Part shown: positions 53,884-64,000 of the stretch, one piece after another
How positions within the stretch are numbered: the stretch's first letter is position 1
Layout: each line of letters opens with the position of its first letter
Source of the DNA: Pseudomonas protegens CHA0
GTDB taxonomy: Bacteria; Pseudomonadota; Gammaproteobacteria; Pseudomonadales; Pseudomonadaceae
Reading direction: 5' to 3'
Length of the DNA: 64,000 nucleotides
Assembly (NCBI RefSeq): GCF_000397205.1
Contig: NC_021237.1
Location: 1,427,001 to 1,491,000, forward strand
Translations under genes and position numbers: made by a program
Notes under the pieces: generated by a model
What the model saw: only the letters and a program-made list of their open reading frames with translations
The model's database searches: none
What the model was told of the DNA's origin: nothing

Positions 53884-53932
53884 TTGATGGGCCTGCGGCC
53901 CTTTTCGCAGCCTGCGGCAGCGGCTACAGAGG
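53884..53932. repeat. GTAGCCGCTGCCGCAGG-type repeat supplying the doxX stop codon
   Basis: The minus strand reads gtagccgctgccgcaggctgc followed by ggccgcagg. The TAG of GTAG is the stop codon of the DoxX gene, as with the REP at fpr. The arms gcctgcgg and ccgcaggc form an inverted repeat. Confidence 0.7.
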
Positions 53933-54433
53933 ACGGTGGCGAAAATGCCGGGCCAGCAGGTGGTCGAGGGACAACACGCCCGGGCCGCGGGCCATCAACA
54001 GCAGGAAGATCGCCGCCCAGGTGCCGTGGGTCGGGTAGGCGTCCGGGTAGACGAAGAGCTGGATGGTCAGGGTCATCCCCAGCAACGCCAGGGCGGAAAA
54101 GCGCGTGGCCAGGCCCAGCAGGATCAGCATCGGGAAAAAATGTTCGGCAAATGCCGCCAGGTGCGCCGCCACTTCCGGCGTCAACAGGGGCACGTGGTAC
54201 TCGCTCTTGAACAGGGGAATGGTCGAGTCCGCCAGGCGCGGCCAGCCCAGCTGGAAGGTGCCATCGACCAGATCGACGGCCAGCCCCTCGACCTTGGTCT
54301 GTCCGGATTTCCAGAACACCGCGGCAATGGAAAAACGCGCGATAAAGGCGATCAGGCTGTAGGGAATGCGCTCAAACCCTTGAATGATCCGATTCACCAG
54401 TCCGGCAATGGGTGTTTCTGTCTGGGTGTTCAT
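53924..54433 (-). CDS. DoxX-family membrane protein of the bufferin operon
   Basis: 169 residues from the ATG at 54433, two bases after the bufC-like stop. Four hydrophobic helices (LIAFIARFSIAAVFWKSGQTKVEG, HLAAFAEHFFPMLILLGLATRF, LTIQLFVYPDAY, AAIFLLLMARGPGVLSLDHLLARHF) match DoxX proteins that accompany MNIO RiPP operons (HvfX-like). A terminal electron transfer or redox role in modification or export is inferred only. The last gene of the operon; its stop is within a repeat. Confidence 0.87.
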   Translation of the reverse strand: MNTQTETPIAGLVNRIIQGFERIPYSLIAFIARFSIAAVFWKSGQTKVEGLAVDLVDGTFQLGWPRLADSTIPLFKSEYHVPLLTPEVAAHLAAFAEHFFPMLILLGLATRFSALALLGMTLTIQLFVYPDAYPTHGTWAAIFLLLMARGPGVLSLDHLLARHFRHRPL

Positions 54434-54435
54434 GG

Positions 54436-55206
54436 TCAGGCCTTCTTCTGGGGTTGCAGGTCGATAAGAGCGCCGTGGCCGAGCAGCAGGCCCAGGCACT
54501 GGCCCAGGTCGAAGTCGGCCTGGGCGTCCAGGGCATGGGCCGCGGCGATTTCCAGCGGCCAGTGGTTGCGTAGGGCTTCAATGAAGGTCATGGCGCCGGT
54601 ATCCACGGCGATCACCTCGACCTCCAGGGCGTTGCGCAGCACCAGGGCGTTCTGCCCCTGCTGCAGGTCGAAAGCCGGCCAGGGCTGATCGCTCTGGTGC
54701 GCCGCCCACAGGCTCACTACGGCGTAGCCGGAGTGCAGGGTGCGCAGTGACGGATGCAGGAGCAGTTGCGCCTGGCCGAGGCGGTCGGGCTGGTTCATCG
54801 CCGCCAGTAGCCGTGACGGCTCCAGGGGGCGGGCGTCGGCGGCGTGGTAGGCCTCGACCCGCAGCCGTTCAAGGCGGGCCATGTCGGCCAGGTAGGGCAG
54901 GCCGGCGGCCGGCCCGAAGCCCTGGATAAAGTCGCCCAGGTCCCGGCCATAGTCGTTGAGCAGAGGGCTGGCGGGGGCGAAGTCCCGGATGTAGAGCGCG
55001 GCCATGGCGTTGAAAAACTCGCGACCAACCAATTGCATGACGACCGGGTATGACTCGGCCAGGGCGTTGCTCAACGAGGCCTGCACATTGTTGCGATAGA
55101 CCGCGAAGCGGCTGGCCGGATCGGCGCCGTTGCTGCTGGACAGCCCCTGTGGGCAGCCCGGTTCGGCGCTCAGCAGGGCCCTGGCGAATTCCCCCTGGCC
55201 ACTCAT
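54436..55206 (-). CDS. BufC/HvfC-like RiPP maturation partner (DUF2063)
   Basis: 256 residues. N-terminal DUF2063 domain ([29 protein letters not shown], about 33-61) and a C-terminal helical part. In MNIO RiPP operons such as Hvf and bufferin, this partner binds the precursor and presents it to the MNIO enzyme; that role is inferred here. Its start overlaps the bufB-like stop (ATGA), so the pair is translationally coupled. The family is often annotated as a DNA-binding-domain protein, which is misleading. Confidence 0.9.
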
Positions 55207-56093
55207 GGCTGCACCTGGGCGCCGAGCAACAGCGCTTCTGCCTGGCTGGCCTCGGCCATCAGGGTGGCAAAGGCCGGCAGGTGGTTGTCGCGCTCGATCA
55301 GGGTGGCCATCGGGCCGATGAGCCCCAGCACCTCCTGGTACAGGGCCCAGACCGCAGCGTCGACCGGGGCGCCGTGATCGTCGATCAACAGCCGGTCACC
55401 GAGGCTGTCCCGGTCTTCGGCGAACCCGGCCAGATGAATCTCGCCCACCGCCTGCAGCGGCAGTGCTTGCAGGTAGGCCAGGGGATCGCGCTGGTGATTG
55501 ATGCACGACACATAGAGGTTGTTGACGTCCAGCAGCAGGCCGCAGCCGCTGCGCTGGACCACTTCGCGGATGAAGTCGGTCTCGTCCAGGGTCGAGCGTT
55601 GGAATTGCAGGTAGGTGGCCGGATTTTCCAGCAGCATGGTTCGTCCCAGTTGGTTCTGCACCTGGTCGATGTGCTCGCAGACCCGGCGCAAGGTGGGCCC
55701 GTCGTAGGCCAGGGGCAGCAGGTCGTTGAGGAACACCGGGCCGTGGCTGGACCAGGCCAGGTGTTCGGAAAAGGACTGGGGCTGATAGCGTTCGATCAAG
55801 CCGGCCAGCCGCTCCAGGTGAGCCAGGTCCAGGGAGCCTTCGCCACCGATGGACAGGCCGACACCGTGCAGCGACAGCGGGTAGCGTTCGCGGATCAGGC
55901 CCAGGTAATGGTGGAAAGGGCCGCCCGCCACCATGTAGTTCTCCGCATGCACCTCGAAGAAACCGATGTCGGGCCGCTGTTCCAGCACGTGTTTGAAATG
56001 CTCGGTCTTGAGCCCCAGCCCGGCGCGGGGCGGCAGGCTGGAGGCGCGCGCCTGAATGTCGTGGCCAGGGTGGTGCAGCGGGGCGGTGTTCAT
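55203..56093 (-). CDS. BufB/HvfB-like MNIO-family oxygenase (DUF692)
   Basis: 296 residues from the ATG at 56093 (a GTG nine bases upstream is possible). Multinuclear non-heme iron oxidase of the DUF692 family that modifies Cys residues of RiPP precursors, to thiooxazoles in bufferins. Metal-ligand-type residues are visible in [10 protein letters not shown] (about 45-55), [10 protein letters not shown] (about 74), [25 protein letters not shown] and LIDDHGAPV. It shares four bases with the bufC-like gene and follows the precursor gene by 25 bases. Confidence 0.92.
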
Positions 56094-56118
56094 CGTCGAC
56101 ACTCAGGCAGGCGCAGGA

Positions 56119-56421
56119 TCAGGGCTTGGCTTTGAAGGCTTCGAGCTGGCCGAAACCGGTAGGCGAGGTACTGCTGGCGGTTTTCTCGCAACTGCCCTTG
56201 GGTACCAGCTTCCAGGCGTTGGCCTGGTCGTTGACCTTGGAGGTCCCGGCGCAGGTGGTGCCGGCGCCCGCGGCGCAATCGTTCTTGCCCTTCATGGCCA
56301 CGCCGAAGCACTTTTCCATGTCGTCCGCGGCATGGGCGGTGGTGGGCAGGGCGGCGACGCTGAGGGCAGAGCCCAGGGCCAGGACCAGGGCAGTGGCGGA
56401 CAGGGTACGAGTGTTGCTCAT
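56119..56421 (-). CDS. BufA1-type (DUF2282) RiPP precursor, four Cys
   Basis: 100 residues with GGAG seven bases upstream of the ATG. Signal peptide cleaving at THAHA-like AHA-AD (about 31), then a Cys-bearing core with Cys38, Cys49, Cys57 and Cys78 (motifs [28 protein letters not shown]) typical of DUF2282 bufferin precursors. After modification by the MNIO enzyme the Cys groups chelate copper in the periplasm; the metal and the modification are inferred from the family. The first gene of a four-gene operon. Confidence 0.9.
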
Positions 56422-60446: not shown

Positions 60447-61574
60447 TTACTGAGGGGAAACTTCGGTTTTAGGTTTGCCGAAGTGCCACTCGTAGACCAC
60501 GAACTTGAAGTCTTTCAAGTCGCCCTTGGCGTCGAAGCTCAGGTCGCCGGTAGGGGTCTTGAAGGTGCCGGCGTGGATGGCTTCAGCCACCTTGGCCGCG
60601 TCTTCGCTCTTGGCGTTGGTGATGGCGCCGGCGATGACTTCAACTGCGGAGTAGGAAGGGAATACGAAAGGACCGCTCGGGTCTTCTTTCTTGGCCTTGA
60701 ACGCGTCAGCCAGGGCCACGTTGGCCGGGTCCTGGTCGAAGGATTTAGGCAGGGTGACCAGCAGGCCTTCGGAAGCATCCTTGGCGATCTGCGAAATGGA
60801 GTCGTTACCCACGCCTTCCGGGCCCATGAACTTGGCCTTCAGGCCTTTCTCCTGGGATTGGCGCAGGATCAGGCCCAGCTCAGGGTGGTAGCCGCCGTAG
60901 TAGACGAAATCGACGTTGGCCTGCTTGAGCTTGGCGATCAGCGAAGAGAAGTCCTTGTCGCCGGCGTTGATGCCTTCGAATACGGCGACCTTGGTGCCTT
61001 TCTTCTCCAGGGTCTGCTTCACGGCGGTGGCGATGCCTTCACCGTACTGCTGCTTGTCGTGGAGCACGGCAACCACTTTGGGTTTCACGTGGTCGGCGAT
61101 GTAGTTACCGGCGGCCGGGCCCTGGGCGCTGTCCAGGCCAATGGTGCGGAACACCATCTTGTAACCACGGGCGGTGATGTCCGGGCTGGTGGCAGCCGGG
61201 GTGATCATGATCACGCCTTCGTCTTCGTAGATGTCGGAAGCAGGTTGAGTGGAGCTGGAGCACAGGTGGCCGACCACGTACTTGACGCCATCGTTGACCA
61301 CTTTGTTGGCGACTGCCACGGCTTGCTTGGGATCACAGGCATCGTCGTATTCAACGGCTTCGAGCTTCTTGCCGTTGACGCCGCCTTTGGCGTTGATCTG
61401 TTCGATGGCCATTTTCGCGCCACTGAACTGCATGTCGCCGTATTGGGCTACAGGGCCGGTCTTGGGGCCGGCGATACCGATCTTGATGGTGTCAGCTGCG
61501 AACGAATGGCTGGCAACCCCGGCCAGGACCATAGCGGCAAACAGTTTGGAAATCTGCTTAGTAGCCTTATTCAT
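60447..61574 (-). CDS. braC: Branched-chain amino-acid-binding protein BraC
   Basis: 375-residue periplasmic LIV-binding protein with a signal peptide (KLFAAMVLAGVASHSFAAD). The type I solute-binding fold has IKIGIAGPKTGPVAQYGDMQFSGAKMAIEQINAKGGVNGKKLE (about 28-68) and a BraC/LivK Cys pair region with DDACDPKQAVAVANKVV (about 75). GGAG five bases before the ATG is a good ribosome site. It is the substrate receptor of the operon; the DNA upstream holds a 16-bp palindrome (61677-61692). Confidence 0.95.
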   Translation of the reverse strand: MNKATKQISKLFAAMVLAGVASHSFAADTIKIGIAGPKTGPVAQYGDMQFSGAKMAIEQINAKGGVNGKKLEAVEYDDACDPKQAVAVANKVVNDGVKYVVGHLCSSSTQPASDIYEDEGVIMITPAATSPDITARGYKMVFRTIGLDSAQGPAAGNYIADHVKPKVVAVLHDKQQYGEGIATAVKQTLEKKGTKVAVFEGINAGDKDFSSLIAKLKQANVDFVYYGGYHPELGLILRQSQEKGLKAKFMGPEGVGNDSISQIAKDASEGLLVTLPKSFDQDPANVALADAFKAKKEDPSGPFVFPSYSAVEVIAGAITNAKSEDAAKVAEAIHAGTFKTPTGDLSFDAKGDLKDFKFVVYEWHFGKPKTEVSPQ

Positions 61575-61914
61575 AGTGCTCCACTCTTACTGTTGTAATT
61601 TTTATAGTTCCGGCGGCCTTGGTCGCAGAACCGAATCAGATATTTCGTGAATACCCGTCGGAAAATGCCCCTGGCAACTGTACCGGTACAGTGTAGAGCG
61701 CCGGTTGTTCGCTTGAAAAGCTGGCTGCTGGGGGCAAAAACGCGGGGTGTCGCTTAATTGAAAGAAAAAGACAGATTTGCGGCGTGGCTTGCGCCCGGTT
61801 CGGCGTCAGTCCCTGGCGCTTCTGAGCTTCTCGATCGGTGTCGCGCTTGCTTCTGGGTTTTTCTGCCAGAGCCCCGACGTTATGATTGCGCCGATTTCAT
61901 TTCTGGACAGTCCC
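61575..61914. promoter_or_regulatory. braC-DUF2288 divergent region
   Basis: 340 bases between divergent braC and the DUF2288 gene. The perfect palindrome at 61677-61692 is the main feature; AT-rich DNA near 61595-61650 suits the braC promoter on the minus strand. Confidence 0.5.
61677..61692. promoter_or_regulatory. 16-bp perfect palindrome upstream of braC
   Basis: ACTGTACCGGTACAGT equals its own reverse complement. It lies 103-118 bases before the braC ATG and about 225 bases before the DUF2288 start. It resembles dyad operators of GntR/MocR-type regulators; the cognate protein is unknown. Confidence 0.7.
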
Positions 61915-62220
61915 ATGACTCAAGAACCTAGCACCCTCTATGCCAAGCTGCTTGGTGAGACCGCATCTATCAGCTGGAAGGAACTGGAGCCGTTCTTCGC
62001 CAAGGGTGCCCTATTGTGGGTCGAGGCTGACCTGGATCTGATCGAGGCGGCCCAGGCCGTGGCCGAGAACCAGGCAGAAAAAGTGGCGGCCTGGCTGGCC
62101 GAAGGAAAGGTCGAGAAACTGTCTGCGACGCGGGCATCCGATCTGCTGGAACGTGATCCGACGCTGTGGGCGGTGGTGGTTTCACCCTGGATCCTGATCC
62201 AGGAAAGGGCATCGCGCTAA
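61915..62220 (+). CDS. DUF2288 protein
   Basis: 101 residues from the ATG at 61915 (MTQEPSTLYAKLLGE); longer in-frame upstream sequence does not look homologous. It is an all-helical small protein with family blocks ISWKELEPFFAKGALLWVEADLDLIEAA (about 15-44) and LWAVVVSPWILIQE at the C-terminus. Function unknown. PA1075-like position next to braC. A terminator-like hairpin follows. Confidence 0.85.
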   Translation: MTQEPSTLYAKLLGETASISWKELEPFFAKGALLWVEADLDLIEAAQAVAENQAEKVAAWLAEGKVEKLSATRASDLLERDPTLWAVVVSPWILIQERASR

Positions 62221-62494: not shown

Positions 62495-64000
62495 TTAATA
62501 CGCGGTCTTGCCTGTGTGACTGTTGAGCGAGATGACCCGGGTCTTGCCGATACGGTGGCGGTAGATTTCCCGCAGGTACTTGATGGCCTTCTTCACGCAA
62601 TCCCGGGACAGGCGGATGTCGTTGATCGAGACGAACTTGTCCTTGTCGTTGATCAGCTCGCGGTACTTCTTCTCGTACATCGGCTTGATCGCATACCAGT
62701 TGGTGTCGAGGATCTTCGCCGGGTTCTCGAATTCGTTGAGCAGATCGTCGATGCGGTCTTCATCGAACTGGTCACTGACGATGAAATCCAGCACCGAGTT
62801 GTCCAGGGTGTCGTCGAAGCGGTACGGATTGCGCGCAAAGCAACGCTTGATAAAGGCCACGATCAGGGTCAGGAAGTCATCCGACAGGCACGGGCTCTTG
62901 GCGATCAGGGTGGTCAGCGACAGGTTGGCCGAAGCGCCGATCACCAGCGCATAGCGCTTGAGGGTGGTGTTGGGGAACAGGCTGTTGAGGTGGGTCTTGA
63001 GCCGGTTCAGGTCCATGTAGGACAGCTTGTAGTCCTTGGGCAGGGACACGATCGATACCACCGACGAGCAGTTCTTGAAGAAGTGCAGGTCATGCAGCGC
63101 CGCGGCGTCATAACCCGAAGCCTTGTATTGCTCCAAGGCCGCGCGGTAGCGCTTGGACTCGATCGGCAGCAGGCTGATGCCCTCGATGGCCTGGGTCACC
63201 TTGTTGAAGTGCGGCAGATCGATGGAGCGGAAGAACAGGTCGTCGATGTTCAGGCGCTGGGGTTCTTTTTCGAACACCTTGAACTTGTCGCCGGTGGGCA
63301 CCGGCTGCTCCGGCACCACGGACTCGGCATAGGCGATCGCCACCGGGCCAGCCAGGCTCATGAACAGGTCGTTGGCATCCAGGCGGATGGTTTCGCCGAT
63401 GTCGATGCCGGCCCGCCGGAAGTAGTTCTGGTCGTAGTCGGTGGTCACCGCCTGGGCGGTGAGGATGTTGAAGATCTGCTGGGAGATGTACTGGTTGGCG
63501 TGCTTCTCCATGGCGTTGACGTCGATGTTCTGGATGTTGCCGTCATCGCTTTCTTCGGCGTAGCGCATGATGTCGTTGGAGATCAGCATCATCGCGTTCC
63601 AGGGGCGGATCCGTCCCATCACGCTGGCTTCGCTGCTGTCTTCATTGTCGAAGTTGTAGGAGAAGTCCCACTCTTCCGAAAGGTACTTGCACAGCAGGCG
63701 GCCGGCGTTGATGTGCAGCGCCTCGGACATTTCGCTGCGATGGTCCGAAATGTTCGGCAGCACGCAGATGCCGCTGGTGAAGATCGGCTCGAAGACGAAG
63801 GAGTGCCCGCTCTTGCTGTCGTGCTCGTCCATCGGTTTGGTGTCGAAGGTCTTGTTCATGTACGAGTACTGCTGGGCCAGGCCGAACTCCGAGGCCATGC
63901 CCGAACCGGTACCGCCGCCGGCACTGAAGATCGAGAAGTACAGGCGCGACTGGTTGGCCTTGATCCCGCAGGAGTCGATCAGGTACGAGTGGATCATCTT
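62495..64000 (-). CDS. Tubulin/FtsZ-like GTPase, N-terminus outside the window
   Basis: At least 501 codons are present up to the window edge; the true start lies beyond 64000, because the tubulin signature GGGTGSG (63899-63919) appears only 27 residues after the first in-window Met, whereas in FtsZ it comes after about 100 residues. Context around it (FSIFSAGGGTGSGMASEFGLAQQ) is the GTP-phosphate T4 loop. The rest is unlike FtsZ or alpha/beta tubulin; LNIDDLFFRSIDLPHFN (about residue 260) could be a T7-like catalytic loop. It has no Trp-rich membrane tail and ends in NSHTGKTAY. The partner genes are out of view. Confidence 0.75.
   Translation of the reverse strand, partial: KMIHSYLIDSCGIKANQSRLYFSIFSAGGGTGSGMASEFGLAQQYSYMNKTFDTKPMDEHDSKSGHSFVFEPIFTSGICVLPNISDHRSEMSEALHINAGRLLCKYLSEEWDFSYNFDNEDSSEASVMGRIRPWNAMMLISNDIMRYAEESDDGNIQNIDVNAMEKHANQYISQQIFNILTAQAVTTDYDQNYFRRAGIDIGETIRLDANDLFMSLAGPVAIAYAESVVPEQPVPTGDKFKVFEKEPQRLNIDDLFFRSIDLPHFNKVTQAIEGISLLPIESKRYRAALEQYKASGYDAAALHDLHFFKNCSSVVSIVSLPKDYKLSYMDLNRLKTHLNSLFPNTTLKRYALVIGASANLSLTTLIAKSPCLSDDFLTLIVAFIKRCFARNPYRFDDTLDNSVLDFIVSDQFDEDRIDDLLNEFENPAKILDTNWYAIKPMYEKKYRELINDKDKFVSINDIRLSRDCVKKAIKYLREIYRHRIGKTRVISLNSHTGKTAY

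Follow-up and report, generated by a model that had tools for sequence, protein, structure and literature searches.

The window, a stretch of 64,000 nucleotides from the single-contig genome (6.87 Mb) of Pseudomonas protegens CHA0 (G000:C1:1427001-1491000), ends inside a gene on the minus strand, which the frame list gives as a 501-codon frame with an open 5' end (62495-64000). The flanking DNA completes this gene (L002:496-2676, minus strand; window 62495 to 64675), which consists of 726 codons and a stop, with its start codon at the window-equivalent positions 64673-64675. The window holds codons 226-726 and the stop, and the other 225 codons (675 bases of the 5' part) lie past its edge; as the start is outside, the initial annotation, which advised reading the flanking DNA for the full gene and its neighbours, was based on the last two thirds of the gene. 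The intact gene encodes an FtsZ-like 2 (FtsZl2) protein, a member of a family named in print in 2010 and thus not new. The best 19-residue Kyte-Doolittle mean of the 726-residue protein is 1.40, which makes it likely to be soluble.

Upstream of the FtsZl2 gene lies a divergent dehydrogenase-like gene, 199 bp away, followed by a gene for an MHYT-GGDEF-EAL protein on the same strand as FtsZl2. On the downstream side are a convergent DUF2288 gene (61777..62220, plus strand), a gene for a braC-like periplasmic amino-acid binding protein (60447..61574, minus strand) and the liv genes; the DUF2288 and braC genes, identified from the frame list and domain annotation, are outside the system. With a divergent gene upstream and a convergent one downstream, FtsZl2 looks monocistronic in P. 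protegens CHA0, and a promoter and terminator scan at the gene gave no signal above chance. The 8.1-kb region is 89.5% identical to that of P. protegens FD6, whose FtsZl2 relative is 99% identical, and 91.5% identical to that of Pseudomonas sp. Au-Pse12.

The protein contains five loop motifs of the tubulin/FtsZ superfamily in the order found in FtsZ: T1 (GLGRCGSN), T3 (AGGAGNAP), T4 (GGGTGSG; residues 253-259, 63899..63919, minus strand), T6 (SND, within ISND; residues 365-368, 63572..63583, minus strand) and T7 (LDAND, within RLDAND with the DxxD pair D433/D436; residues 431-436, 63368..63385, minus strand). The loop names come from comparison with FtsZ, those of T6 and T7 being assigned by eye with the backing of the family description in PMC2875224. 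Among the loops T1-T3, whose absence the initial annotation held to speak against a tubulin/FtsZ GTPase, T1 and T3 are present and T2 was not identified; the same goes for T5. In an alignment of the window protein with 28 relatives sharing 56-94% identity with it (set A2, picked from a larger locus set for lineage spread and including two sequences, L216 and L149, for which the start codon is uncertain), 28 of the 29 counted motif columns are identical in all 29 sequences. The counted columns are G88, G90, G93, S94 and N95 in T1, residues 195-202 in T3, 253-259 in T4, 366-368 in T6 and 431-436 in T7, so that T4, T7 and S366, N367 and D368 are identical throughout (I365 is also invariant); the sole exception is A198 of T3 (alanine in 24 sequences, serine in 5), and the variable L89 within the T1 stretch was left out of the count. 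The five ordered motifs, their conservation and the purifying selection described below rule out a chance occurrence of GGGTGSG. Conservation extends into the family-specific C-terminal region (residues about 476-726; 62498..63250, minus strand), where 47 of the 85 positions from 531 to 615 are invariant in A2; invariant positions are scarce over residues 1-75 and within a small number of inserts, among them 111-145, 456-475, 511-530 and 616-648. The most diverged FtsZl2 members found, L227 and L228 of family f286 (56% identity to the window protein, branch about 1.05), retain the counted loop residues.

The window protein scores 18.3 bits against PF00091 (Tubulin; cut-off 33), with positions 113-128 of the model falling on residues 247-262 around T4, and 14.9 bits against PF13809 (Tubulin_2; cut-off 27), the latter alignment covering residues 197-371 from T3 to T6. 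At E up to 1, all 29 aligned members match Tubulin (best E 0.00023) and 28 match Tubulin_2 (best E 0.00056); the unrelated family DUF6562 attains a comparable value (11 of 29 members, best E 0.00041). The window protein has no match to FtsZ_C in Pfam and none in NCBIfam, and its C-terminal region has no Pfam match at E up to 1. Among solved structures, tubulin/FtsZ was not found by phmmer or profile search, the latter returning only chains of ribosomal protein L23 (E 0.45-1.2), and with Tubulin_2 as the query the own genome yielded nothing at E 0.001. When aligned with 12 FtsZ-family sequences by hhalign, the family scored 29.7, a weak result that does not exceed the reversed alignment (30.2), though it lies above the best of 60 column shuffles (28.4). 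This alignment puts T3-T4 of the family on T3-T4 of E. coli FtsZ, and T1 falls on T1 if the comparison is confined to the T1 part or if T4 is masked (26.6). T6 and T7 did not register on FtsZ with hhalign; residues 280-460 alone matched elsewhere in FtsZ (E 0.45), out of T6/T7 register, and global mode yielded no useful alignment with the FtsZ family.

A canonical FtsZ would match PF00091 above the cut-off and carry FtsZ_C, and the window protein does neither, which agrees with its initial placement in the tubulin/FtsZ superfamily apart from FtsZ. It resembles E. coli FtsZ in T1, T3 and T4 (by hhalign) and in the T6- and T7-like motifs (by eye), but differs in its large inserts, its length (726 versus 383 residues) and its patchy distribution. 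The further suggestion that a new cytoskeletal system may be defined here is overstated, the family not being new. Makarova and Koonin (2010; PMC2875224) searched RefSeq for GGGTG(S/T)G and, in the passages on this family, defined FtsZl2 with PFL_1302 of P. fluorescens Pf-5 as its type. They reported an HHpred E of 0.0033 to PF00091 and core elements among which are T1, T4, T6 and T7, described the C-terminal region, about 300 residues long, as unrelated, noted neither a coiled coil nor associated genes, and predicted filaments. The window protein likewise contains the GGGTG(S/T)G loop, the T1, T4, T6 and T7 motifs and, behind an FtsZ-like domain, a C-terminal region unlike other families; it comes from the same genus as PFL_1302, and both the published and the present family lack recurrent gene partners and are found in Proteobacteria in the material searched. 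No difference between the two was found, the comparison being one of descriptions. Orthology with PFL_1302 is inferred from this description and from the single match in nearly every gene-carrying Pseudomonas genome, two matches each being present in G076, G223 and G270. The link to membrane remodelling raised in the initial annotation belongs elsewhere, since the relevant passages of PMC2875224 argue it for FtsZl1, another family. FtsZl1 and Tubulin_2 proteins share with the window protein the weak profile match from T3 to T6 and a large non-FtsZ C-terminal part, but the window protein stays below the Tubulin_2 cut-off and has no recurrent vWA, kinase, GTPase or OmpA neighbour. As for later literature, PMC9871819, in the pertinent section, notes FtsZ-like sequences that carry Tubulin_2 but leaves them out of its treatment and does not use the name FtsZl2; this name appears as a string three times in PMC7327170, and Tubulin_2 or PF13809 is mentioned in other papers as well. 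No experimental work on FtsZl2 was found in the full text of the open-licence papers searched. TubZ and PhuZ are alike to the window protein in superfamily only, and are carried by plasmids or phages, whereas the window gene is chromosomal.

In FtsZ and tubulin, the DxxD pair of T7 acts on the nucleotide of the neighbouring subunit. As the invariant DxxD pair of FtsZl2 is read as T7, a GTP-dependent head-to-tail polymer is the form in which the protein would be expected to work. It could instead be a GTP-binding tubulin-fold switch or scaffold forming no long polymers. Its filament interface would then be capped by the inserts and the C-terminal region, and it would function as a monomer or in a small assembly, together with a partner whose gene lies elsewhere. 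In line with this alternative are the large family inserts (the spacing from T1 to T3 is about 108 residues, by manual count, versus about 50 in E. coli FtsZ), the C-terminal region without a family match, and the arginine of RLDAND, which occupies the position of the asparagine in the T7 loop of FtsZ. The identity of the DxxD pair in 29 of 29 sequences, a pair that works across the subunit interface in FtsZ and tubulin, argues against it, and the switch is regarded as unlikely.

The initial annotation expected operon partners just beyond the window. In the best 80 of 565 relatives, braC is found at 75 of 80 loci. Of 106 loci compared (these 80 plus 26 more), the most frequent three arrangements, with 27, 16 and 15 loci, all have FtsZl2 flanked on one side by the MHYT gene, the dehydrogenase gene being present or absent, and on the other by DUF2288-braC. 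An all-against-all BLAST of the flanking frames (at least 80 codons) from 52 loci in 13 lineages, Pseudomonas and genus g19 being treated as separate lineages, found no neighbour common to most lineages; the flanks extended to about 8 kb at the most, or 11 kb on the upstream side of L002, and were shorter at contig ends. Together with the divergent and convergent flanking genes of P. protegens CHA0, this leads to the rejection of an operon. Neighbours shared by a pair of lineages comprise a CxxCxxCC protein (Pseudomonas and one f267 locus, 52% identity), endonuclease I (f185 and g19, 34%) and an RND pump pair (f267 and f183, 32-36%). Those recurring more often belong to abundant families, namely GGDEF/GGDEF-EAL proteins (6 of 13 lineages), chemoreceptor-like proteins (three families of bacteria) and ABC ATPases. 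Loci L207 (f141) and L229 (f199) have several neighbours in common, up to 72% identical, and FtsZl2, broken in L229, occupies a differing position in this shared stretch.

The recurrence of GGDEF/EAL proteins raises the question whether FtsZl2 acts with cyclic-di-GMP signalling, the nearby proteins controlling it or being positioned by it. They occur in the flanks of Pseudomonas, g19, f38, f185 (5 of 9 loci), f267 (1 of 7) and f192 (1 of 4), and an EAL domain lies within 5 kb of FtsZl2 in four of six genomes, where the density of such domains (29, 25, 15, 36, 11 and 27 per genome) predicts about 3-10% each. This observation was, however, made post hoc among very abundant families, and chemoreceptor-like genes recur too. 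Moreover, the proteins concerned are non-orthologous, with MHYT, Amt-PAS, PAS/GAF or TPR input parts, their distance from FtsZl2 ranges from 198 to 4678 bp, and one of the five f185 cases lies on the opposite side of FtsZl2; by BLAST, GGDEF/EAL is found at none of eight f203 loci and none of three PsdB Pseudomonas loci, and PMC2875224, in its account of the family, found no gene association. A cyclic-di-GMP partner is therefore a weak lead only, and this reading is very improbable. At five of the nine f185 loci (L154, L157, L158, L160 and L161), the gene adjoining FtsZl2 encodes an ammonium transporter fused to PAS-GGDEF-EAL, as identified by Pfam at three of the five and by similarity at the remainder.

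The FtsZl2 gene is under purifying selection, with a median dN/dS of 0.087 over 80 Pseudomonas pairs and a median protein identity of 92.4% to the window protein (the best 80 of 565 relatives, each with Pseudomonas in its title). Each locus was compared with the window genes only, and hits had to span 90% or more of the protein with dS under 1.2, which left 45 to 80 loci per gene. Similar medians are obtained for braC (0.100, 75 loci), livM (0.117, 75), an MFS gene (0.078, 74) and the dehydrogenase gene (0.106, 45 of 51), and higher ones for the MHYT-GGDEF-EAL (0.229, 73) and DUF2288 (0.221, 75) genes. This value and the intact frame rule out a pseudogene for the P. protegens CHA0 copy.

FtsZl2 is present in 194 of 298 sampled Pseudomonas genomes. 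As it was not found in the other 104, the gene is accessory at genus level, although the initial description of a core-chromosome gene beside braC fits P. protegens CHA0. Elsewhere the distribution is patchy: FtsZl2 occurs in 3 of 59 genomes of the family sample (two of the own genus), 2 of 369 of the class sample (own genome included) and 9 of 398 of the phylum sample (six of the own genus), the last two being sparse draws. It was also detected in 11 of 12 genomes of family f203 (in one as broken pieces only), 29 of 48 of f185 and 1 of 3 of f38, and in 31 of 394 from the order of G1071 and 22 of 390 from the order of G840 (five of the own genus). The hit rates are not strictly comparable between samples, as the phylum sample was queried with one protein (L105), and f203, f185, f38 and both order samples with a 10-sequence profile (A1). 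Only broken pieces of FtsZl2 are left in G1071 (L175 6896-9730) and G1244 (L229 7622-8099), while intact copies persist in their relatives; loss of the gene is thus possible.

In the maximum-likelihood tree of the 29 sequences, families and orders are intermingled at supported nodes. Family f185 (order of G840) falls inside f203 (order of G1071) and genus g19 of f1 pairs with a member of f267 (support 100 each), an f141 member groups with f184 (90), and f38 lies among Pseudomonas (94-95); several deep nodes are weak (19-76). Gene exchange between proteobacterial chromosomes would be the simplest reading of this tree, and the lack of shared neighbours suggests transfer as a single gene.

Phages and plasmids are not apparent as the origin. 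Neither the 72,556 plasmid records nor the 50,697 phage records searched contained an FtsZl2 relative, and two stretches of viral contigs that matched a pattern encode no relative; the initial statement that this chromosomal gene is in no visible phage is borne out. In PHROG, no match fell below E 0.08. An anti-phage or mobile-element gene would account for single-gene transfer and patchiness, and both the patchy presence and the family-mixing tree accord with it. PADLOC, run on two proteins, gave no match, however, and, besides the absence of relatives from the phage, plasmid and viral-contig records searched, 43 of 47 flanking stretches are without tRNA, the position beside braC is retained in Pseudomonas, and the protein is strongly conserved instead of changing fast. 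Such a gene is the least probable of the readings considered. A tRNA-linked island is not supported either: four flanking stretches have a tRNA, and only in L220 is it within 500 bp of FtsZl2, this being a predicted selenocysteine tRNA (L220 10464-10555, G1162) about 380 bp downstream.

A self-sufficient accessory filament is suggested by the solo context, by the apparent transfer and by the lack of relatives among the phage and plasmid records. The best explanation, and a probable one judging from sequence comparisons, is that FtsZl2 is a self-sufficient, horizontally exchanged, GTP-dependent filament protein of the tubulin/FtsZ superfamily, not devoted to division. As a putative diverged GTPase of this superfamily, it would bind GTP in a pocket formed by T1, T3, T4 and T6, and polymerise by head-to-tail contacts in which each subunit supplies its T7 DxxD loop to complete the active site of its neighbour. 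GTP turnover would then make the cytoplasmic filament dynamic, and the FtsZ_C or Tubulin_C domain would be replaced by an additional C-terminal region some 250 residues long. The gene may be an accessory module that stands alone and passes singly between the chromosomes of proteobacteria, and its task is probably the positioning or scaffolding of something cytoplasmic. Counting against this explanation are the Tubulin and Tubulin_2 scores below cut-off, the comparable DUF6562 value, the lack of matches in NCBIfam and of tubulin or FtsZ among solved-structure matches, the weak hhalign score and the arginine in T7. A stronger version, in which FtsZl2 is a complete one-gene cytomotive system with no cognate adaptor or operon and a non-division positioning role, held under housekeeping-level selection in about two thirds of sampled Pseudomonas and dispensable to a third, is offered tentatively and is more doubtful.

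FtsZl2 was named about sixteen years ago and occurs in easily handled Pseudomonas of the fluorescens group. New here are its frequency in the genus, its patchiness elsewhere, the tree mixing families and orders, and the absence from the plasmid and phage records searched. Should FtsZl2 form polymers, it would count as a bacterial relative of tubulin that belongs neither to division nor to plasmid partition or phage biology.

Elsewhere in the window, the minus strand carries a run of genes for a DUF2282 protein, an MbnB/TglH/ChrH-type enzyme, a DUF2063 protein and a DoxX protein (53924-56421). This run looks like a RiPP-precursor modification cassette and presumably resembles the bufferin-type copper operons.
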